IMG/VR virus record: IMGVR_UViG_3300034198_010768
Span: 1-27,984 of that record
From: a virus
Strand: one strand, 5' to 3'
Length of the DNA stretch: 27,984 nt
Notes under the pieces: generated by a model
The model's input: the letters and a program-made list of their open reading frames with translations, nothing else
The model's database searches: none
What the model was told of the DNA's origin: nothing
Part shown: positions 1 to 24,723 of the stretch, one piece after another
How positions within the stretch are numbered: position 1 is the stretch's first letter
Layout: each line of letters begins with the position of its first letter
Translations under genes and position numbers: made by a program

Positions 1-87
1 TAAATATATCATTAGAAATTTCTACTTAATGTCGTGTTAAAGGTTGTAACAACCAAGTCTAAGTTTGATAATTGGGTATCATTTAAA
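1..87. repeat. Terminal direct repeat, left copy (circular overlap)
   Basis: These 87 bases are identical to 27898-27984. Joining the ends places the gene that stops at 12 directly against the gene that starts at 27909 through a TAATG stop/start, so the repeat is best read as the overlap of a circular assembly. It implies a circularly permuted or circular genome. A true short terminal repeat is less likely because a gene junction runs through it. Confidence 0.95.
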
Positions 88-1529
88 CCTTGACCATAAG
101 AAAGAGATGCATATCTCATTTCTTCAGGGAAATTAGCACCATTCACAGTTCCAATATACATTGAGTTTGTTGATTGTGTTGCGGTGTTATTAACACTACC
201 AAAATTAAACCATGAACCACCTTGAAGTTTTCTTGCAAATCTTGCAAAGTTGCTAGCGGTTCTACTAATACCTTGAGAATATCCTCCAGTTCCTACCACA
301 GCTCCACCATTACTCAATGCGCTTCCACCATCAAACCATTCAAGTTGTGCACAGGTTCCCATAATAACATAAGGTCCCGCAACACCAGCATAATCACAAC
401 CTACATTGTATACACCATTAACATATCTGTAGTAGTGGTGTGAGTCATTTCTATTACCACCAACACCATAAGGATTCCAATGTGAATCACCATAGTTAGA
501 ACTACTCTTAGAATTTGGTTTAACACCATTTGAATCAACAGTCCAAGTACCATTGAATGACATTCTGTATGCCGCATCTGTATCCTGAGGGTCTTTAAGG
601 TTGAACTTACAAGTAAAATCAGTTCCCCCTACAAATGGATAGAAAGCATCAAGCAGAGTCCATAGACCATATGATTTAAGGTCAAGAACCAATGTATTGA
701 TTGCTGTTGCATCCAATCCTGAAATACCTGTTGCGGTAATAAACGCTTGAGCATCAGGGTCAACTGCGGGACCAGGACTTGAACTTGGTGTAGGAGTAAC
801 CGTAGGGGTTGATGTTTTGGTCGGAGTTATCGTTGGAGTGACTGATGGGGTTGTTGTAACCGTTGGAGTCACTGTTGAAGTTACCGATGGAGTAGGAGTT
901 GTTGTAGGACAAGTTGGTGGGTAGTTTAGATAGAAAGAATTACCAGGTGCTGTATTCAATCCACCTTGTAACCATCTTACACTTCCTTGAGTAATTGTCT
1001 GAGTATAACCTGGTATTAACAGGGCTGAATAACCTGTAGTTGACCAGGGGTCAGAACTGATTATACCTGTTACCCATCCTGCATCAACACCCAATGCCGA
1101 TACTCTTCTGAAAATATATCTATCCCCAAATGTGTATACGGGATAATTGTATCCATCAGGTGCTGTTCCGACAAGATATTCACTACCTGTATAATACCCG
1201 TAAGTCATTGAACCCCCTGAGTAACTATATTTTCTGTCGTAAGTTCCATCAAAATCATTTCCACCTGTTGAGTTAGTGATAATAAATTCTTCAGGACAGA
1301 TTGGGTAATTTGTCTGAGTCGGAGTGATTGATGGGGTTACTGTTGTTGTAGGAGTGATACTCGGAGTAGGTGTGATTGTTAAAGTTGGTGATGGTGTTAA
1401 AGTAATTGTAGGGGTAGGTGACGGACTTGGTGCAGGTGCATCAGGAACAAACCTTGCCACAATGTCCAAGATTGCTCTGTTCTCACCAAGATAGTTTGAG
1501 AATTGTTTGTTATAAAAAACTCTACCCAT
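12..1529 (-). CDS. Tail fibre / receptor-binding protein with two Pro-Thr linkers
   Basis: This is a 505-residue protein. The N-terminal 30 residues look like an anchor segment. A Pro/Thr/Ser linker follows (about residues 32-73), then a Gly/Tyr/Ser-rich domain of about 135 residues, a second Pro/Thr linker (about 208-255) and a C-terminal domain of about 250 residues. The C-terminal domain matches that of the protein at 2616-3893: both have a YGLW segment, an FYP..GG segment, a YGD...NP...GG.ND.H stretch and an ending like TTL.R. I know this module from fibres of phages of Bacteroidota (from memory). It probably binds the host surface. The gene ends in TAATG, coupled across the circle junction to the gene at 27469-27909. 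Adhesin function is inferred from architecture and position; no catalytic motif was seen. Confidence 0.7.
   Translation of the reverse strand: MGRVFYNKQFSNYLGENRAILDIVARFVPDAPAPSPSPTPTITLTPSPTLTITPTPSITPTTTVTPSITPTQTNYPICPEEFIITNSTGGNDFDGTYDRKYSYSGGSMTYGYYTGSEYLVGTAPDGYNYPVYTFGDRYIFRRVSALGVDAGWVTGIISSDPWSTTGYSALLIPGYTQTITQGSVRWLQGGLNTAPGNSFYLNYPPTCPTTTPTPSVTSTVTPTVTTTPSVTPTITPTKTSTPTVTPTPSSSPGPAVDPDAQAFITATGISGLDATAINTLVLDLKSYGLWTLLDAFYPFVGGTDFTCKFNLKDPQDTDAAYRMSFNGTWTVDSNGVKPNSKSSSNYGDSHWNPYGVGGNRNDSHHYYRYVNGVYNVGCDYAGVAGPYVIMGTCAQLEWFDGGSALSNGGAVVGTGGYSQGISRTASNFARFARKLQGGSWFNFGSVNNTATQSTNSMYIGTVNGANFPEEMRYASLSYGQGLNDTQLSNLDLVVTTFNTTLSRNF
768..908 (-). repeat. Pro/Thr-rich linker tract 2 of the 505-residue fibre protein
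   Basis: This is a degenerate short-period repeat encoding alternating TPT, TPS and VTP units. It separates the central domain from the C-terminal receptor-binding-like domain. Closely similar DNA words recur in the tracts at 1311, 3384, 3648, 15405, 15648, 15882 and 17952. Confidence 0.85.
1311..1436 (-). repeat. Pro/Thr-rich linker tract 1 of the 505-residue fibre protein
   Basis: This encodes about 42 residues made almost only of P, T and S with single I, L or V residues. It lies just after the N-terminal anchor segment. The composition fits an extended flexible spacer. Confidence 0.85.
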
Positions 1530-2615: not shown

Positions 2616-3893
2616 TTAAACTTGTCTACCTAATGTTGTTTGGAAGTTCTGAATCGCTGTGTATAGATTTGATACTTCACTATCTGATAATGCATTTCCT
2701 GTTGTAACGAATGCGTATTGTCTTGTGGTTGGAGATTCTACTAATCCACCAGCATTAATCCAGTTTCTTGCAGCTAAGAACAAATCACCATTTGGTCTTG
2801 CTGTTGAAGTAACAGATGAGTTTCCAAGTGATGTTGAATTTCTGTAGAATTCAGTATCAGTTGAAGACCTTCTTGTAATGGTAAATAATCCACTTGAATC
2901 TGTGTTTGCAAATGTTCCTTGAGTTGTTGCATTTACAACACCTCTCATATCATCCACAGTGGAACGAGAGTTAACCTGAGTTCTTTCGTTAGGGTTTGCA
3001 TATGCTCCCATATCAAACTCAGCAGTTCCCTGTTGTTGGTTTGTTCTTGAATAGAACGACATGTGGAAATCATTCAACCCACCAATATTATTTGGGTTAG
3101 AATTCAAATCACCATAACCTGTTGTTCCATTAGAATTCACACCATTTGTTGTGAATATTAAACCACCATTCCAAGTGATATTACGGGTACCAGGAGTCTT
3201 TCCGTTAACAGCTTGACCTCCACTACTATTTCCACCTAAAAGTGGGTAGAATGAATATAATTTAGACCATAGACCATAATTGAATAAGTCATAGAATAAT
3301 TGGTATGTTGCTCCCGATGCTGTTGCGTCAAGAGTTCCCCCACCAGCAATTACTGCTGCCATGTAAGTCTGAGCCTCACTCACCCCTTGTGGAGTAGGTG
3401 TAGGTGTCGGAGTTGATGTTGAAGTCACTGATGGACTTGGAGGAATTGGTGATGAAGATGGAGTTATCGTTGGAGTTACTGTTGGACTTGATGTGATTGT
3501 CGGAGTAACCGTATTGGTTGGGGTAACCGTTGGAGTGGTTGTTGAAGTCGGAGTCGGAGATGGACTAGGTTGTGGTTGACACTCATTCCAATCGTTTACA
3601 TTGGATTCCCAATTCACAGATGTTGCACTCCAAGTACAATCAAATCCTACAGGAGTGGAACTCGGTGTAGGTGTTGGAGTAGGAGTTTTTGTTGCAGTTA
3701 CTGATGGAGTTGGAGTCGGTGAAGTTGGTGGTTGTGGTGATACCTCAGGTTCTTTGTAAACATTCATTACAACAGGGTTCCATACGGGGAGTTCTTTCTC
3801 ACCATATGGTTTCAATGCTTCCTTTACATCAAAAGGTTTTCTAACAGGATTTTGGGGTCTTTGAGGTCTATAACTTCTACCGTTCCACTTCAT
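2616..3893 (-). CDS. Tail fibre / receptor-binding protein, paralogous C-terminus
   Basis: This is a 425-residue protein. The N-terminal 50 residues are basic and contain an ALKPYGEKE..VW motif, probably the virion attachment segment. A Pro/Thr linker (about 52-82) leads to a short W-rich piece bounded by two cysteines (C86 and C105). A long second linker (about 106-170) then leads to a C-terminal domain of 255 residues homologous to the C-terminus of the 505-residue protein at 12-1529, with the shared YGLW, FYP..GG and YGD..NP..GG elements. It is the first gene after a strong terminator, so it depends on read-through or on an unseen promoter. Host binding is inferred. Confidence 0.7.
   Translation of the reverse strand: MKWNGRSYRPQRPQNPVRKPFDVKEALKPYGEKELPVWNPVVMNVYKEPEVSPQPPTSPTPTPSVTATKTPTPTPTPSSTPVGFDCTWSATSVNWESNVNDWNECQPQPSPSPTPTSTTTPTVTPTNTVTPTITSSPTVTPTITPSSSPIPPSPSVTSTSTPTPTPTPQGVSEAQTYMAAVIAGGGTLDATASGATYQLFYDLFNYGLWSKLYSFYPLLGGNSSGGQAVNGKTPGTRNITWNGGLIFTTNGVNSNGTTGYGDLNSNPNNIGGLNDFHMSFYSRTNQQQGTAEFDMGAYANPNERTQVNSRSTVDDMRGVVNATTQGTFANTDSSGLFTITRRSSTDTEFYRNSTSLGNSSVTSTARPNGDLFLAARNWINAGGLVESPTTRQYAFVTTGNALSDSEVSNLYTAIQNFQTTLGRQV
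3384..3578 (-). repeat. Long Pro/Thr linker tract of the 425-residue fibre
   Basis: This encodes about 65 residues of VTPT, TPTI and SPTP-type units, the longest such tract in the window. It leads straight into the paralogous fibre C-terminal domain. Confidence 0.85.
3648..3740 (-). repeat. First Pro/Thr linker tract of the 425-residue fibre
   Basis: This encodes about 31 residues, ending in a TPTPTPSSTP string that also ends linkers in the 582-residue tail protein (15405 and 15882). The same linker end in different genes points to exchange or duplication. Confidence 0.85.
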
Positions 3894-11984: not shown

Positions 11985-14588
11985 TTAACAAGAGGTTTCT
12001 AATACCCTACCATAAATATCAACCACCACAAATGTGGTCGTGGATGTGGTTTGTCTAACATAGGTTCCCATTGGGAGAACAGCATAAGCCGTACCTGTGT
12101 CAATGTATACTTTATCCAAGTTACCCAAGGTTCCTGAACCAAATGAGAATATTGTAGTAAGTGATGGGGTTGTACCAGCACATACCAAGTCTTTGTCTGT
12201 TGAAACATATGCCAGAGTGTAATACAATGGTTCTGGTTGAGGATATGATTCATTTGGTGCCAAGATATAGATTGGAGCAGGTGGCTCAATTCTATAATAA
12301 GGTAAAGTGTCTTTGATTAATGAAATCTGAGTGAGTCTTTTGTTCACCAAGTCAGCATCACTAATTTTTTCAATTGTGAAATACGAATCCTTAATCCAAA
12401 TCTTATCATTGAGTTTGGTCTCGTATACATCAATTGGTCTGAAGAAGAACTGACCCGTCAATCTCTTGTTGGTTGGGTCATATAAGTTTTCAACATAAGT
12501 TCTCCAAAACGAGTTGTAGATGGTGAATGGTGTGAACTGTAAAATTTGATTTGTGGTGTTACCAAAGAAATCAAAGGTACCTCTGAAGTTCAAATCAGAA
12601 ATAACCTCACTAACGCCTTGAGATTCCAATGTGGACAAGTGTGATACACATGGATAGGTAACCCATTCTACTGGCGTTGAACCTGATAACAGATACCACG
12701 ACCCTTGAACCGATTTGAACACATCTTTGTATGCGTGTCTGTTTCCAACCCAAAAGAATAGGTGAGGAACAGTAGCGTATGGAGCTTGTTGTTGGTTGTT
12801 GAGGTAGTAATACTGAGGAATGATGAAGTTTGGTGCATTGGTAACCCCCGATGTAGGACAAGAACCGAATGGAACCTCATATACTTGTTCTCCAACAAAT
12901 ACATTTGATAATGAGGTAAATTTCTCCCTACCAAATACGAAATCAAATCTATCGGTAAATTGTTTTGGAAGGAATTCGTTATCAGTAAATCTATAAGTCC
13001 AAACGATATCTTTGGATAGGTCAAAAGACAAAGGTTCAATCTTGGTTACTGAGTCCAAATCCAAGATGTTTGTGAAGTCTTTTATCTGTCTATCAGTGTC
13101 ATTGAAATGCCAGTTGTATGGTTCAATTTTGATTGTCTGTTGAACCTCATCTTGAACAACAACCAAATTGAATATTGTGATGATGGACTTGAAGAAATCA
13201 ATACACGGTATGTTTGGAACCCCCAAACTCATATCCACCAATTCTGTTACAATGGTTGGGGATTGGTATAAATCATACATTGGGAATTGGTCAATAATGG
13301 TTCCATCATTATATCCTTGGATTTGATAGTTACCCTTACTTGGACTATAACAAAATGGGTTACCAAATGTGGTTTTATCAAAGATGAATATTCTAACAAA
13401 TTCACCAGCAAGTAAGTTATCACTAAAGAATAAATTCACTGGTAATGGACCACTTCCACCCAATCCACTGTAAGCTTGTGAGAGTTTAATTGGAGGTGAT
13501 TCATAGAACATTGTTCCTGAACTTAGGATGTTGTTCGGGTCAGTTCCCTTCCATGCTTGGATGGTGATATCAGGGACAGCAAGTGCGGTGAAGATACAGA
13601 AGTCAGTGGTTAAAACATTGAACCTCACATTGAATCCATACAGACCTGAATATGGCGTTCTAAAGGTATTACCACCCGCAGGAGTATAATTGTTCAACGG
13701 GTCATATCCACCATTGATTTGGTCAAAGAATATCATCTCATGGTGAGTATCTTTATCGTAATCAAATTGTTGTAGAGTACCGAAGGCTTTGAAGATGTTT
13801 TGGTTTGTTACCCCCGATGCATACTCAATTCCAATCTTACCATTTTGGAAAGTATCCATGTAGATAGAACGGAAGTACTCTGAATTGAAAAACTCAGAGT
13901 TAATTGTATATGGGGTCAATCCAAATATTCTATCCAACACATCTTTAACTTGAAGTGCTGGTTTAAACATTGATGGAGCAACAGGGAATGATGACTGGTC
14001 AAATGAAAAAGGACCATCAAAATCATAACTGAATGTTGGGGTTGCTCCTGAGGAACTATCACCCTGATAATCCAATCCATAGTTAATTAGGGGATAAAGA
14101 AGTTTACCCCCAAATAAACCTGATACACCATCGTTCACACATTCCCATGATTTTGTTATGGCTGAATAGACATGGTCATGATTCAAATCAGTCCAATTGA
14201 GGTCTTGAAGGTCAAGATTCCTAAAATAAGAGGTAAAATCAGACACTTCACCCAAGATGAATATCTCGTAGGTTCTCTCCTCTGTTGAGGTACTAACTGA
14301 GTTCAGTCTCATAACCCCTTGGAAGATGTCTGTTCCACGATATTGAACCACACAAGGTATCTTCTGTAATGGGTTAAATTCAATCCCATTGACCTCGTAG
14401 TAATGTTCAAATAGAATCGCATTATTAGCCGTGTCAGGAATGACGATTGTCTTTGAATAGGGAACCCTCCGATTTGTTAAATTCGTCAAATCGTTTTGTT
14501 GAATGGTTAGAGTGACTGGAATATCCTCAAATAAATCCACTCTTTCCCAAGTGTTTCCTGAAAGTTGAACCAATAATGTTGTATTCAC
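11985..14588 (-). CDS. Large tail tip / baseplate hub protein
   Basis: This 867-residue, strand-rich protein lies immediately upstream of the tape measure gene. Its N-terminus (LDLFEDIPVTLT-type strand, then RRVPYSKTIVIP...N..LF) resembles the start of a tail-tip protein I recall next to tape measure genes in other phages of Bacteroidota, where it may play the distal-tail/hub role. Tyr, Phe, Asn and Asp are abundant. No hydrolase motif and no Pro/Thr linker are visible. Only 3 bases separate its stop from the tape measure start. Tail tip or hub is the most likely role; the exact counterpart is uncertain. Confidence 0.65.
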   Translation of the reverse strand: MNTTLLVQLSGNTWERVDLFEDIPVTLTIQQNDLTNLTNRRVPYSKTIVIPDTANNAILFEHYYEVNGIEFNPLQKIPCVVQYRGTDIFQGVMRLNSVSTSTEERTYEIFILGEVSDFTSYFRNLDLQDLNWTDLNHDHVYSAITKSWECVNDGVSGLFGGKLLYPLINYGLDYQGDSSSGATPTFSYDFDGPFSFDQSSFPVAPSMFKPALQVKDVLDRIFGLTPYTINSEFFNSEYFRSIYMDTFQNGKIGIEYASGVTNQNIFKAFGTLQQFDYDKDTHHEMIFFDQINGGYDPLNNYTPAGGNTFRTPYSGLYGFNVRFNVLTTDFCIFTALAVPDITIQAWKGTDPNNILSSGTMFYESPPIKLSQAYSGLGGSGPLPVNLFFSDNLLAGEFVRIFIFDKTTFGNPFCYSPSKGNYQIQGYNDGTIIDQFPMYDLYQSPTIVTELVDMSLGVPNIPCIDFFKSIITIFNLVVVQDEVQQTIKIEPYNWHFNDTDRQIKDFTNILDLDSVTKIEPLSFDLSKDIVWTYRFTDNEFLPKQFTDRFDFVFGREKFTSLSNVFVGEQVYEVPFGSCPTSGVTNAPNFIIPQYYYLNNQQQAPYATVPHLFFWVGNRHAYKDVFKSVQGSWYLLSGSTPVEWVTYPCVSHLSTLESQGVSEVISDLNFRGTFDFFGNTTNQILQFTPFTIYNSFWRTYVENLYDPTNKRLTGQFFFRPIDVYETKLNDKIWIKDSYFTIEKISDADLVNKRLTQISLIKDTLPYYRIEPPAPIYILAPNESYPQPEPLYYTLAYVSTDKDLVCAGTTPSLTTIFSFGSGTLGNLDKVYIDTGTAYAVLPMGTYVRQTTSTTTFVVVDIYGRVLETSC

Positions 14589-15146: not shown

Positions 15147-16895
15147 TTAACAAGGTCCGCCAGGAGAACATACCAATGTTACATTCGCTCCTGATGAGTT
15201 ATAGACATCTGAACTTCCGTATCTGAAGTCACCAGTGAACGGATTCGTCAACGCAGTGTTTTCAAAGATTTCGGTATCAGGGTCTGTTGGGTCACTTACA
15301 GAACAGTTCGTGTAAACGGTTCTTGCTGTTGGGTCTTCACAAGCACATATTCCACCTGAACATGTTCCACCCACACACTCAAAGATGTTCCATGATAAGA
15401 AACAACCTGGTGTTGAACTTGGGGTAGGAGTTGGTGTTGGAGTTCTTGTTGGACTTGGTACGATACAAGGTCCCAATGGTGTAACCTCTGAGTATTGAGA
15501 TTCAATGGTTCCTGCACAAGCACATGGGTTAAATACCGACAATGGTGCTAATACATAAGTTTGTGGAACACCCAAACAATCAATGTATTGGATGAAGTCA
15601 TTTATCTCTGCCAAGTTTTCAACAAGGTATTCGGTACAAACACAACTATTACTTGGAGTTGGGGTTGGAGTAGGAGTCGTTGGTGGTGCACATGGACCTC
15701 CTGTTAAGATTTGAACAGCAACTTCTGTAACAGGGTAAGTACAAGAACAGATGTTATAAGTTAGGTTAGGTTGTAATGAAATATTCTGTGACAAGTTGGT
15801 AACACAATTGGTAATTGTTACACTTGCCAAAGATTCACCACTCCAAAACAATTGATACTCGGTACAACCTGAACAGAATCCTGCCGGTGTTGATGATGGT
15901 GTTGGAGTTGGGGTTGGTGTTAAGAACTGAGTAGGAGTTGGGGTTGGTGAAGGTTGAATAGGTGTTGTACTTCCTGTGAACTTACCAAACAACTGAACGG
16001 TGTATTGTACTGTATCAGCTGAGATGGTTGACCAGAATGGGAAGTTCTTAGGACCTGCCGCCACATACAAGGTATTGAAATCGGTCGTTGCAGAATAGGG
16101 GTCAATCAAATAAAGTGATTGATACACCTGACCACAAACAGTTCTTGGTCCTCCACCATTGGTGGTAACATTCTCGTAAGTTACTCCTGTAATCAATACT
16201 CCATCCCCATCGTAAAACTTGTATTCAGAGTAATAGGGTTCAGATAATCCCGTAGAGGTGTTACCACTCCACAGATAGTAATTGGTGAATCCTAATGTAA
16301 AATAATCATCCTCAGTGATGTCCAATATTCTTGGAGCATTGGTTAAGAACAATCCAGTCCTTGTTGGATACTGACCGATTGGGTTACCTGATAACACATA
16401 AGGGTCAATGTTGAAATCCTGTTGTGTTGCTCTTGGGTTGGTACCCATGGTTGAACGGAATGTTTTATACACCTCAGATTGAACGGCTGGTTGACCTGTT
16501 GAATTTCCATATCCTGTGTAACCAGTAATTGACCCCAATTCAGAGTCAGCGTATTCATAACCAGCTCTTATGTAGAAGTTAATTACCTCATCGTTTGCAG
16601 GTCTTGAGAATGGAAATGTTTGGTGTGTATAAATTGGGGTTGTGTCCCAATATGAGATTGGTAATGAGTCTGTGTAGGTCTCAAGGATTTGTTGTAGGTC
16701 AACAATCCCCAAACCATAAGGGTTAGGTGAGCACTTACCTTGAAACACAAGAGTATCCTCCACAAAAAGATTATAGACATACCTAAATTTATAGGTCGTC
16801 AAGGCATTGTAAGTGTCAGATGATAAAGTAAAAAATATACCATCCGATAATACAGGTTGAAACTCCGCAGGGGTGTCTTGAAATATTAGACTCAT
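15147..16895 (-). CDS. Tail protein with three Pro/Thr linkers and Cys beads
   Basis: This is a 582-residue protein. Residues 1-310 form a strand-rich domain (FRYVYNLFVEDTLVFQGK.SPNPYGLGIVDLQQIL) that resembles the N-terminal half of a tail-tip protein in other phages. The rest is beads on a string: linker 311-338, Cys bead 341-402, linker 403-416, Cys bead 418-477, linker 478-497 and a third Cys-rich domain 498-582. The first two beads align: C-T-E-Y at 344-347 and 420-423, second Cys at 364 and 440, and Cys pairs at 383/385 and 458/460. The beads may be surface-binding decorations on the tail. The start overlaps the upstream stop by 4 bases (ATGA). Confidence 0.6.
   Translation of the reverse strand: MSLIFQDTPAEFQPVLSDGIFFTLSSDTYNALTTYKFRYVYNLFVEDTLVFQGKCSPNPYGLGIVDLQQILETYTDSLPISYWDTTPIYTHQTFPFSRPANDEVINFYIRAGYEYADSELGSITGYTGYGNSTGQPAVQSEVYKTFRSTMGTNPRATQQDFNIDPYVLSGNPIGQYPTRTGLFLTNAPRILDITEDDYFTLGFTNYYLWSGNTSTGLSEPYYSEYKFYDGDGVLITGVTYENVTTNGGGPRTVCGQVYQSLYLIDPYSATTDFNTLYVAAGPKNFPFWSTISADTVQYTVQLFGKFTGSTTPIQPSPTPTPTQFLTPTPTPTPSSTPAGFCSGCTEYQLFWSGESLASVTITNCVTNLSQNISLQPNLTYNICSCTYPVTEVAVQILTGGPCAPPTTPTPTPTPSNSCVCTEYLVENLAEINDFIQYIDCLGVPQTYVLAPLSVFNPCACAGTIESQYSEVTPLGPCIVPSPTRTPTPTPTPSSTPGCFLSWNIFECVGGTCSGGICACEDPTARTVYTNCSVSDPTDPDTEIFENTALTNPFTGDFRYGSSDVYNSSGANVTLVCSPGGPC
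15405..15464 (-). repeat. Third Pro/Thr linker of the 582-residue tail protein
   Basis: This encodes about 20 residues of alternating T and P, ending in TPSSTPG. It separates the second aligned Cys bead from the last Cys-rich domain. Confidence 0.8.
15648..15689 (-). repeat. Second Pro/Thr linker of the 582-residue tail protein
   Basis: This short linker of about 14 residues (PTTPTPTPTPSNS) lies between two homologous Cys beads. Confidence 0.8.
15882..15965 (-). repeat. First Pro/Thr linker of the 582-residue tail protein
   Basis: This linker of about 28 residues has an internal TQFL break. It joins the N-terminal tail domain to the first Cys bead. Confidence 0.8.
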
Positions 16896-17446
16896 TTGAT
16901 TTTAATTATTATTTTGTTTTGGATGAGCTCCTCTAAGAAAGCTTTACCATATTCTCCCAAGTAAAATTCTATGGATTCTCTTGTTTTATTGAAGCCTTCT
17001 TCAACAAATCTTGTAGGGAATATACCATATTCACCAATACTTCTTTGTAAAAGGAAGTTTCTTGTATCGTTTGATATAAATCTACCCTTCTTATCTCTGA
17101 ACTGACCGATACCTCTGACAGCAGCCCAATTCTCAATTGCTGATAATGGGGGATATTTTACTGCCAAGGATTGTTGTTTACCTCTTCTACCGTAATTGAC
17201 ATATCTCCACTCAGGAGCCATGGTCAATTCAATTCTAACCTTGTCTGATTGTTCGTTAAATTTAACCTCCACGGACTCATACAAATCACCAGTTGCGATT
17301 CTATTTGAGATTGAACCAAATCCCCCACCAACAGGTTTCTTTCTTCCGTCAAAAGCCCTTGAGGGTCTTAACTTGGAAAGTTCTGCTTTGATGTTATTGG
17401 TTAATAACTCAGAGATTAATTCTAAATAACTTGATGATTCAGCCAT
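16892..17446 (-). CDS. HK97 gp10-like tail completion / head-tail joining protein
   Basis: This 184-residue basic protein has the outline of the gp10-like family: an N-terminal helix (ISELLTNNIKAEL), a strand segment with TGDLYESVEVKF, a WRYVNYGRRGKQ turn in the middle, and a C-terminal helix with ESIEFYLGEYGKAFLEELI. In the family the motif (mutated or methylated Lys/Arg, then YG-R/K-G) lies at about the same place. It would act at the tail end nearest the head. It overlaps the next gene by ATGA and follows the tail-terminator-like gene by 16 bases, matching the usual pairing of these two functions. Confidence 0.6.
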   Translation of the reverse strand: MAESSSYLELISELLTNNIKAELSKLRPSRAFDGRKKPVGGGFGSISNRIATGDLYESVEVKFNEQSDKVRIELTMAPEWRYVNYGRRGKQQSLAVKYPPLSAIENWAAVRGIGQFRDKKGRFISNDTRNFLLQRSIGEYGIFPTRFVEEGFNKTRESIEFYLGEYGKAFLEELIQNKIIIKIK

Positions 17447-17462
17447 GACCTTGAAATATTAA

Positions 17463-18611
17463 TTATGGACAACCTCCTGAGAATCCTCCACCTTGTAAGA
17501 ATCCAAGGATAACTCTCCATGTACCATATGCACCCGCACCATCCATATCATTACTGTAGTATCCTGTAGGTGCTGGTATTGTTAGGTTAGAATCCAAGAA
17601 GAATTGTTGACCTGTCATCAAACATGGATAACAGTTATATGGGATACAAGGAGCACATGAACCTAAATCATAAGCGTAAACAGTGATTGTATTACCACTT
17701 GTTAAGTTGTTACATGCGTCTGATTTGGTGCTACCACTACCCACAGTAAATGACAATGGAACCAATGGACAAGAAACAGAGATTGAGGTAATCGTTCCTG
17801 TTCCTGAAGTTACGCTCACACTATTAGGAACCGCGCATATAGCAATTTGTTGTCCATTACTAACCGATACTGAATCAGGACTCAAATCACAATTTGTCCA
17901 AGAGAATGTTCCACCAAAGTTTGTTCCTAAAAGTTTATATGCCTGACATGCTGTTGGTGATGTTGTAGGAGTTGGAGTTGCTGTCTTGGTAGGAGTAACC
18001 GTTGGGGTTACTGTCTTGGTAGGAGTAACTGTCGGAGTAGTTGTTGATGTTACTGTTGGGGTTGGACTTGGTGATAAACCAGGTGTTGGTGTAGGGGTTG
18101 TTGTCGCCGTAGGTGATGGAGTAGGACTAACCTCTTCGTAGTAGTTACAAGCATTCAAGTCCTCATAAACAATCAGAGGTACCTCCATGGCAACTCCTGC
18201 CACATGGTCACCAAATCTTTCAAAGAATGGTAATGCTTGAACCGGCATATTGATGTCAATGTTCTCATACAACTCAGGGAATGTATGTAAACCCAACTTC
18301 ACATAGGAAAGGAACCTACGAGCTTGTAATGACATATCTGAGACACAATCTAACTCGTTTGATAAATCCCAATTTAAGATGTCAGCAAAAATCATCGTGC
18401 AGTTATACACGGTCATATTGTCTTGGTATTCTATTGCTTGTGGAACAACAAACAAAAACGGATACTGAACCGTTTGTCCTGAAATTGTTTTTCCAAAATC
18501 TACCAAGTTACCATATCCAAAAGTGTTCATGATGGGGGACTGCTCTTGGAAATATTGCAGGTAATCCATCAACTTATGGAAGGTGGTGTAGTTATTCATC
18601 GGTGTGCTCAT
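17463..18611 (-). CDS. Tail-terminator-like protein with a Pro/Thr linker and Cys bead
   Basis: This is a 382-residue protein. Residues 1-155 are a compact alpha/beta domain (MNNYTTFHKLMDYLQYF, later FFERFGDHVAGVAMEVPLIV) that resembles small tail completion or terminator proteins encoded near gp10-like genes. A Pro/Thr linker (161-220) follows, then a Cys bead with C222, C241 and C259 spaced as in the beads of the 582-residue tail protein, then more Cys-rich sequence to the end. A tail terminator is normally a small ring protein, so the 220-residue C-terminal decoration is unusual. The terminator assignment comes from context and resemblance; an alternative is another neck or tail completion component. 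Confidence 0.5.
   Translation of the reverse strand: MSTPMNNYTTFHKLMDYLQYFQEQSPIMNTFGYGNLVDFGKTISGQTVQYPFLFVVPQAIEYQDNMTVYNCTMIFADILNWDLSNELDCVSDMSLQARRFLSYVKLGLHTFPELYENIDINMPVQALPFFERFGDHVAGVAMEVPLIVYEDLNACNYYEEVSPTPSPTATTTPTPTPGLSPSPTPTVTSTTTPTVTPTKTVTPTVTPTKTATPTPTTSPTACQAYKLLGTNFGGTFSWTNCDLSPDSVSVSNGQQIAICAVPNSVSVTSGTGTITSISVSCPLVPLSFTVGSGSTKSDACNNLTSGNTITVYAYDLGSCAPCIPYNCYPCLMTGQQFFLDSNLTIPAPTGYYSNDMDGAGAYGTWRVILGFLQGGGFSGGCP
17952..18131 (-). repeat. Pro/Thr linker tract of the tail-terminator-like protein
   Basis: This encodes about 60 residues. Nearly identical units (VTPTKT followed by VTPTKT) lie in tandem, showing recent local duplication. Confidence 0.85.
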
Positions 18612-23514: not shown

Positions 23515-23853
23515 ATGGGAAGTAAAAAAATTAATTCGTATCTGAATCGTAGGATTTGGAGAGAGGATGGAACATATTACTTTTGTCGTCTCTGTGGGGA
23601 CTACAAACACGAGAATGAGTTCTACAACTCAAAGCATACCCCCTTCGGTAAGACTTACAAGTGTAGAATCCATTACAGCAAAACCGGTGATGCTGTTGAT
23701 GATGAATCAGAACACCTCAAGATGAATCCAATCACGGATTCGGACTTTGAAGGAGCTGAGACAGTATTGAAGAATCTCGGTTTCACTTTCGGACCTGGTG
23801 AGTTACCGGTTTGGAAACAATTTGAAATAAAACATAAACTAAATAAAAATTAA
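23515..23853 (+). CDS. Zinc-finger protein A, first gene of the rightward operon
   Basis: This 112-residue protein has a zinc site C24-x2-C27-x22-C50-x2-H53 preceded by REDGTYYF and containing a NEFY segment, a pattern like the small zinc modules found near phage HNH/endonuclease VII-type proteins. No nuclease motif follows. The C-terminal 30 residues (VLKNLGFTFGPGELPVWKQF..KHKL) match the C-terminus of the protein at 24265-24723. It may bind DNA or RNA, or be an early regulator. The start is 5 bases after the predicted -7 box. Confidence 0.7.
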   Translation: MGSKKINSYLNRRIWREDGTYYFCRLCGDYKHENEFYNSKHTPFGKTYKCRIHYSKTGDAVDDESEHLKMNPITDSDFEGAETVLKNLGFTFGPGELPVWKQFEIKHKLNKN

Positions 23854-23858
23854 AAACC

Positions 23859-24287
23859 ATGTTAGGAGCAAGTAAAATTAATGAGTTGACGGATGACTTA
23901 CACCGTCTAAATGAAATGTTTGAAATGGGATTAAACAATTCCCAAATCGCAAGAATCTACAGGACCAATAGTGGTCATCAAATCTCAAGAATCCATGTCT
24001 CTTCAATCAGAAGAAACAAACGATGGAATTCTGATAAGCGTTCATTTTTAATGAAACATGAACTTGGTGGGAGTTTCTCTGTATCCACCAAAATTGGACA
24101 GACACAATACAAAACCGTAGTTGGTGTGGTATTCACAGATGAATCCAATTTGTATACTTATTTGACATATAAGGACTCAGTTTTACAAAATGGTAATATG
24201 TCCTACCTTATGACAAAACAACCAAGCACAGAGGAATTAATGAAATTCCATAACCAATGGATTTATGATGACATCTCACACATCTGA
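23859..24287 (+). CDS. Putative helix-turn-helix DNA-binding protein
   Basis: This is a 142-residue protein. Residues 12-55 (LNEMFEMGLNNSQIARIYRTN...HVSSIRRNKRW) fit a helix-turn-helix of the type where GLNNSQIA is the first-helix/turn and the following helix recognises DNA. The C-terminal part (about 70-142) is strand-rich and not recognised. It starts 5 bases after the stop of zinc-finger protein A, and its end overlaps the start of zinc-finger protein B by 23 bases. A regulator role in the operon is likely but unproven. Confidence 0.6.
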   Translation: MLGASKINELTDDLHRLNEMFEMGLNNSQIARIYRTNSGHQISRIHVSSIRRNKRWNSDKRSFLMKHELGGSFSVSTKIGQTQYKTVVGVVFTDESNLYTYLTYKDSVLQNGNMSYLMTKQPSTEELMKFHNQWIYDDISHI

Positions 24288-24723
24288 TAGAAAGTACACC
24301 GAGAATGGAGTAGAGTATTGTTTTTGCACCAAACACAATGCCTTTGAACCATGCACCGAGTTTAGTCCACGACCAAATAAGGTGCATGGTTACTACTACT
24401 ATTGTCGTAAATGTGTTACTGGTTATCAGAAACTCTACAGAGAAAAAAAAGATAGACTCATCGTTGAGGATGGAATTGAGAAATGTTTCTGTACTCAACA
24501 CGATGAATACCACCCATGTGAGAACTTCCAACGAAGCAAAGCTAACCATGGATACCAATACAACTGTAGAGATATTGTGAAACTTCAAATGGTTGATAGG
24601 GGTACCGAATATGCTCGGAACAATGAAAGAACTCAAGCATTTGAAATGTTATCAATGATAGGTTACGATACCTCAGGTGAGGTGTCAATCCATGAACAAT
24701 TTAAACAAAAATATAACTTATGA
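24265..24723 (+). CDS. Zinc-finger protein B with a duplicated finger
   Basis: This 152-residue protein has two tandem copies of a unit of about 55 residues. The first has C21-x2-H24-x22-C47-x2-C50. The second has C76-x2-H79-x21-C101 but Ile104 where the fourth ligand should be, so it is probably degenerate. Both share an ENG/EDG..(E)..CFCT.H start. The C-terminus (MLSMIGYDTSGEVSIHEQF..KYNL) aligns with that of zinc-finger protein A. The gene overlaps both neighbours (23 bases, then ATGA). A second in-frame ATG lies at 24268. Nucleic-acid binding is likely; no catalytic motif was seen. Confidence 0.7.
   Translation: MMTSHTSDRKYTENGVEYCFCTKHNAFEPCTEFSPRPNKVHGYYYYCRKCVTGYQKLYREKKDRLIVEDGIEKCFCTQHDEYHPCENFQRSKANHGYQYNCRDIVKLQMVDRGTEYARNNERTQAFEMLSMIGYDTSGEVSIHEQFKQKYNL

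Follow-up and report, generated by a model that had tools for sequence, protein, structure and literature searches.

Several kinds of small domain are known to decorate the virion proteins of phages. Immunoglobulin (Ig)-like domains (Big_1, Big_2, I-set, FN3) sit on tail tube, fibre and capsid proteins; on tail tubes they are non-essential, yet some mutants infect less well, and T4 Hoc is cited as a precedent for mucin-glycan binding (PMC9022992). In Bacteroidetes phages, BACON repeats are associated with the tail, where two lineages are described and separate domains have spread horizontally (PMC6949934). In the 936 phages of lactococci, carbohydrate-binding modules (CBMs) are found on neck and tail proteins, and two of them bound host cells (PMC6669499). 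Here we describe a further domain, the "bead", in IMG/VR virus record IMGVR_UViG_3300034198_010768, which was analysed as a complete record of 27,984 bases (the window). Two beads stand in tandem in a protein of 582 residues (p582) and one in a protein of 382 residues (p382). The verdict of the analysis is that the bead represents a domain family which has no name yet and whose functional kind is known, and we put at about 60% the probability that it serves as an accessory module for surface contact, its scaffold being fixed and its faces variable.

A four-cysteine domain shared by two otherwise unrelated proteins

An earlier note, made from the sequence of this DNA alone, had described a three-cysteine bead on two unrelated tail proteins. 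A letter-by-letter check of the sequence agrees with its C-x-x-Y starts, at C344 and C420 of p582 and C222 of p382, and with its spacings, the second cysteine following at +20, +20 and +19 and the third at a further +19, +18 and +18; the Pro/Thr linker ahead of each of the three beads is likewise present. The number of cysteines has to be corrected from three to four. The core consists of C344, C364, C383 and C402 in bead 1 of p582, of C420, C440, C458 and C477 in bead 2, and of C222, C241, C259 and C281 in p382, and the fourth column is Cys in all 148 of the 148 beads that align there. In the wider family, whose length is about 59 residues, all four core columns (C1 to C4) are Cys in every aligning bead, an invariance that for C1 to C3 is partly a consequence of how the beads were found. 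The conserved positions are those of a scaffold (C, Y, D/N-C-x-G, I-C-A, G-x-C), and the remainder is highly variable.

Cysteine spacing by itself is weak evidence of relationship, as it is common by chance: a loose spacing pattern occurs 288 times in the open reading frames (ORFs) fetched first and 129-165 times in shuffled ORFs. This frequency of only about twice that of the shuffles would favour the view that the p382 and p582 beads are not homologous and that Cys-rich tails arrived at the same spacing by convergence or chance, as would the first direct comparison, in which a p582-family profile without iteration gave the p382 bead 15.8 bits and the best of 2000 composition-preserving shuffles 15.6. 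However, iteration through relatives reaches the p382 bead, which settles the homology of the p382 and p582 beads. A profile seeded with the two p582 beads alone found it at E=8.8e-5 while it was still outside the profile and, after convergence, at E=5.5e-9. Intermediate beads exist in p382-type proteins of other loci (L021, L031, L131), and the predicted fold is shared, with the cysteines at equivalent places, so that non-homology, already disfavoured, has become very improbable. A family profile over the region from C1 to C4 gives the window beads 3.8e-16, 5e-14 and 1.3e-9, and a search of viral contigs with the bead profile, proposed in the earlier note, picks out a real family even though the spacing alone is common by chance. 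The proteins that carry the beads are otherwise unrelated, as had been claimed: a profile comparison of the N-terminal parts of p582 and p382 returned a probability of 0.05%.

Relatives were drawn from scans of viral contigs with the terminase, p382 and p582, and further ones were obtained with a DNA pattern based on the bead motif; L-numbers denote the fetched loci, which are stretches of viral contigs. Of the first 80 loci obtained with the DNA pattern, which itself selects for part of the motif, 61 contain a bead at E<0.1. Altogether, 136 ORFs in 125 loci, part of which are overlapping stretches of the same contig, carry one to five beads each (E<0.01), and 82 of the 136 end no more than 15 residues past the last bead. 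With beads and linkers masked, the carriers form 21 clusters, of which 16 retain 150 or more unmasked residues, under single linkage that merges some unrelated backbones; the bead is present on at least 16 host backbones. A link between the backbones of p582 and another protein of the window, p867, was rejected, because it was due to short matches to L153, which are about 80 residues long, as is domain C (described below), and the cluster concerned merges two backbones.

Among the carriers are proteins of the p582, p382 and p867 types. Another, found in uncultured relatives, belongs to the phrog_14478 virion structural type and has 2072 residues and four C-terminal beads, and in an annotated structural protein of MW202828 (Manatee Spring) the bead is the extreme C terminus. 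All carriers found belong to environmental or uncultured viruses. The bead had no match to a named family in Pfam (scans of 10 and 42 beads), NCBIfam or PHROGs and none among PDB sequences, a single-bead tblastn search for cultured relatives gave nothing significant except the uncultured-type genome MW202828, and a description of the bead was not found in the open-licence literature. An identity as VHL beta-domain (Pfam 0.0039 for one of 42 beads, fold matches with E above 1) was treated as chance.

Predicted fold and cysteine pairing

AlphaFold, run on 42 aligned beads of both the p382 and the p582 kind, predicts the p382 bead as all beta with a pLDDT (predicted local distance difference test) of 91.6, and a p582 model that starts at residue 339 and runs to the C terminus (14 sequences) puts both beads at about 90, with low confidence for the linkers and the third domain. 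The predicted fold is confident in all three window beads and consists of five strands. Strand order is identical in the p382 and p582 models, with strands 1 and 2 of p382 given as a single long element. Each of the three beads has C1 at the start of strand 1, C2 just past strand 2, C3 in strand 4 or at it, and C4 at the end of strand 5 or right after it. The structure prediction suggested in the earlier note thus gives agreeing folds, as judged by strand order, with the cysteines at equivalent places. Foldseek found no match to the bead models in the PDB at E<0.001, in a search where short domains score poorly. In a library of predicted viral proteins, in which the fold recurs in several uncultured-phage proteins, the best match is a protein of an uncultured member of the Caudovirales (E 6.6e-6, template modelling (TM) score 0.90), and a weaker one is a TP901-1-type major tail protein (E 0.056, TM 0.75, root-mean-square deviation 1.9).

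Many beads contain an accessory pair, defined as one Cys no more than four residues ahead of C1 and another at C3+2, the latter being the second Cys of a CxC. Both p582 beads have it (C341/C385 and C418/C460), unlike the p382 bead. Among 186 distinct beads, 91 have both accessory cysteines, none the CxC only, 45 the upstream Cys only and 50 neither; the co-occurrence gives a Fisher value of 4e-19, which is inflated because related beads were treated as independent. Beads with and without the pair stand inside single proteins in L188 and L171. This pattern points to accessory cysteines that behave like disulfide partners, in which case the N-terminal end of the bead would adjoin the C3 strand. 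As the core cysteines do not vary, their pairing cannot be read from co-occurrence, and for the bead as a whole we infer disulfide pairing, with the co-occurring third pair suggesting that the disulfides are stacked.

Inheritance and exchange of the beads

The earlier note had called the bead a mobile, shuffled domain. This holds in so far as a homologous domain occurs in unrelated proteins, on at least the 16 backbones counted above, and is patchy among close relatives, but the beads of the p582 family are not recent arrivals. On a bead tree of 60 columns, the copies of p582 bead 1 group together as supported orthologues, as do those of bead 2 (99/90 each), so that the p582 beads are old, vertically inherited residents; many of the remaining forks in this tree lack resolution. 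Where p582 homologues are long enough for the C terminus to be seen, they have beads (A) and/or domain C, in arrangements such as AA, AAA, AAC and AC. The p382 bead lies outside the p582 clades, in a mixed cluster with weak support, and is therefore no recent copy of the neighbouring p582 beads.

The beads of the p382 family come and go, as the data support. Among relatives whose N-terminal part is 77-80% identical, the protein ends in a bare Pro/Thr tail of 26-32 residues in L082, L083 and L098, while L085 and L087 have domain B and L086 domain C, with other domains elsewhere; beads were found only in the window, L021, L031 and L131/L132. A programmed frameshift that would add beads to p382 proteins ending in the linker was rejected in ten relatives, where no bead lies in another frame; in these ten, the next gene (p184 type) follows directly after the bare tail.

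Features of the bead-carrying proteins

The coordinates of the two genes and their parts are collected in Table 1.

Table 1. Bead-carrying genes of the window, their beads, linkers and further domains
Feature	Position	Strand	Residues	Description or basis
p582 gene	15147..16895	-		conserved N-terminal ~310 residues, then A-A-C beads
Bead A, copy 1 of p582	15690..15875	-	C341-C402	sequence, profile, AlphaFold pLDDT about 90
Bead A, copy 2 of p582	15465..15644	-	C418-C477	sequence, profile, AlphaFold pLDDT about 92
Pro/Thr linker before p582 bead 1	15876..15953	-	315-340	sequence
Pro/Thr linker between p582 beads	15645..15689	-	403-417	sequence; low model confidence
Pro/Thr linker after p582 bead 2	15405..15464	-	478-497	sequence; pLDDT below 50
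p582 third Cys-rich domain (domain C)	15150..15404	-	498-582	profile, architectures
p382 gene	17463..18611	-		conserved ~155-residue N-terminal domain, linker, then beads A-B
Bead A of p382	17769..17948	-	C222-C281	sequence, profile E=8.8e-5 before inclusion, pLDDT 91.6
p382 Pro/Thr linker	17949..18128	-	162-221	sequence; many close relatives' protein stops here, beadless
p382 second Cys-rich domain (domain B), directly after bead	17469..17759	-	285-381	profile, architectures

Domain C is also present in the p382-type protein of L086 (7.4e-20) and in a p867-type protein of L153 (37-48% identity over 71-83 residues), so that domain C, too, moves between virion proteins. In the set fetched first, 19 ORFs contain domain B, and in several cases it lies upstream of the p382-type domain, not downstream. 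At the C terminus of p867 (window 11988-12215, minus strand), there is a conserved Cys-containing domain of about 76 residues, present in 22 p867 homologues, which has only a short motif in common with domain B. A single family uniting domains B and C with this p867 domain was not supported, since profile-profile overlap was confined to a short stretch. In 12 ORFs of relatives (L057, L058, L059, L063, L065, L069, L071 and others), the p382 N-terminal domain is doubled in tandem.

For p582 there was no match in Pfam or PHROGs and none in the PDB, and PHROGs and PDB profile searches for a known terminator or completion family gave no usable match for p382. Whole p382 has one match in PHROGs, to a family of unknown function, which spans linker and beads (E=4e-4). 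The putative tail-terminator-like role named for p382 in the earlier note has gene order as its only basis.

Other linker and Cys-containing proteins

A tiny tryptophan motif, W-N/D-x5-W-x2-E-x3-W-D/N, stands at the ends of Pro/Thr linkers in L031, L032, L052, L064 and others. It has 19 matches, 17 of which have a Pro/Thr/Ser-rich stretch upstream, and none was obtained in one round of shuffled ORFs. Residues 86-105 of p425 (window 3579-3638, minus strand), CTWSATSVNWESNVNDWNEC, look like a relaxed form of the motif and do not match the pattern. Together with p505, p425 is a further Pro/Thr-linker protein near the capsid gene (p505 at window 12-1529 and p425 at 2616-3893, both on the minus strand); their C-terminal domains are alike by eye, and that of p425 matches phrog_17104 and occurs also in p382-type ORFs of L045 and L149. 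Three consecutive small proteins are encoded at window 23515-24723 on the plus strand, opposite to the bead genes. In p112 and p152, repeated Cys/His spacings have a zinc-finger-like look, with CFCTKHNAFEPC...YYCRKC found twice in p152.

Function and alternative explanations

In the reading that we prefer, the bead would be an all-beta display domain of about 59 residues, in which the four invariant cysteines most likely form two disulfides, with an optional third between the Cys just before C1 and the second Cys of the CxC. Carried on flexible Pro/Thr-rich linkers close to or at the C-terminal ends of virion proteins, it would be gained, lost and swapped as a unit. Such a tethered module, held out from the particle, could contact the host surface or its glycans weakly but in many copies, thereby raising the chance of adsorption, and it would not be the main receptor-binding protein. 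This role is favoured because the scaffold, the variable remainder, the tethers, the terminal placement and the swapping match what is seen in Ig-like, BACON and CBM decorations.

A number of points weigh against this role. Outward exposure of the beads, including the placement "outside of the tail" of the earlier note, is presumed, and that they bind a ligand such as a glycan is something we infer, a status that itself counts against the proposal. Column frequencies do not reveal a conserved patch on the surface such as would point to a single ligand. Outside the p582 family, a Pro/Thr/Ser-rich linker lies just upstream of only 51 of 153 beads. The positions of p382 and p582 in the particle are taken from gene neighbourhood, as neither has a family or PDB match. 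With regard to the disulfides, the inflation of the co-occurrence statistic has to be added, and phage proteins fold in the reducing cytoplasm, so that disulfides could form only after lysis.

The main rival to a surface-contact role is that the beads are structural spacers or stabilisers, disulfide-knit and protease-resistant knobs without a ligand, which stiffen or protect the C-terminal tethers or lock adjacent subunits. The restriction of conservation to scaffold residues, the cysteine-rich composition and the retention of the tandem p582 copies as orthologues throughout that family would all fit such a part, whereas the patchy occurrence and exchange of beads in the p382 family, in which close relatives have bare linkers, would be odd for an element needed for stability, and other kinds of domain fill the same place in p382 relatives; we consider the spacer explanation unlikely, at clearly worse than even odds. 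It is less probable still that the beads act on the environment, for example by attaching the particle to extracellular polysaccharide, as has been proposed for Ig-like domains and mucus. The mucin-glycan precedent of T4 Hoc (PMC9022992) and the environmental or uncultured origin of every carrier speak for this idea, which by sequence is hardly separable from binding to a host surface.

A different question is whether the four core cysteines hold a metal such as zinc instead of forming disulfides. Four near-invariant cysteines within one small domain made in a reducing cytoplasm would be compatible with a metal site, but the accessory cysteines co-occur pairwise (91/0/45/50), as disulfide partners do, and the core lacks a knuckle-type CxxC, its cysteines standing singly about 18-20 residues apart, so that metal binding appears distinctly improbable.

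A Flavobacteriia-like host is likely, because matches lead to phages of Nonlabens, Cellulophaga and Flavobacterium. The window terminase is 30% identical over 255 residues to that of Nonlabens phage P12024L, p867 matches the same phage in two stretches (22-25%), and the matches of further bead carriers are to phages of Cellulophaga and Flavobacterium; no relative was found when contigs of bacterial and archaeal genomes were scanned with p582 and the terminase. A broader proposal, to which we give somewhat less than an even chance, is that the bead is an overlooked and widespread disulfide-stapled beta module, which in phages of Flavobacteriia-like hosts would have the role that Ig-like domains have elsewhere, with a cysteine-locked scaffold and faces free to vary, and which would be passed among several kinds of virion protein together with at least the two small Cys-rich domains B and C and be oxidised after lysis.

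Promiscuous decoration domains help to decide to which surfaces phages stick, and the decoration repertoire of environmental Bacteroidota phages is almost unannotated. A bead profile could supply annotation for the C-terminal ends of many "hypothetical" virion proteins, and the bare- and loaded-linker variants in close relatives constitute a natural experiment on the role of the bead.

Comparison with known decoration domains

Among cultured phages, the phrog_14478 protein of the Cellulophaga phi19:3 and Flavobacterium elemo type is an N-terminal protein shared with the uncultured four-bead carriers of about 2072 residues; no bead was found by profile in the fetched stretches of phi19:3 and elemoA. 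The CBMs of the 936 phages (BppA type; neck, tail and Dit) resemble the bead as exchangeable binding bricks on several virion proteins. They differ from it in belonging to phages of Gram-positive hosts and in being modules with a solved counterpart, and Pfam, PDB sequence and fold searches matched the bead to no known CBM family or structure; of the 42 beads scanned, a single one matched BppL_N in Pfam (E=0.016), which is no more than chance would give. BACON (PF13004) resembles the bead as a domain that is repeated in tandem and, in Bacteroidetes phages, is associated with the tail (PMC6949934), whereas the cysteine scaffold is peculiar to the bead, and Pfam scans with the BACON model gave no match in the window or in the beads. 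Towards the end of its p867-type protein, the cultured relative Nonlabens phage P12024L shows a weak match to BACON (E=0.0029, below the curated cut-off). Beads occur in p867-type proteins of L045 (10339-11247), L052 and L154, and those of L045 and L154 are C-terminal, where the P12024L protein has its weak BACON match.

In the comparison with phage Ig-like domains, no Ig, Big or FN3 family is among the Pfam matches of the 10 and 42 beads scanned, and Foldseek gave no significant fold match to solved Ig domains in the PDB, where short domains score poorly. The bead is set apart by its four invariant cysteines and, in the present virus, by its Pro/Thr tethers. The likeness lies in the general design, as both are small, all-beta, promiscuous over unrelated virion proteins, frequently C-terminal and accessory (PMC9022992).

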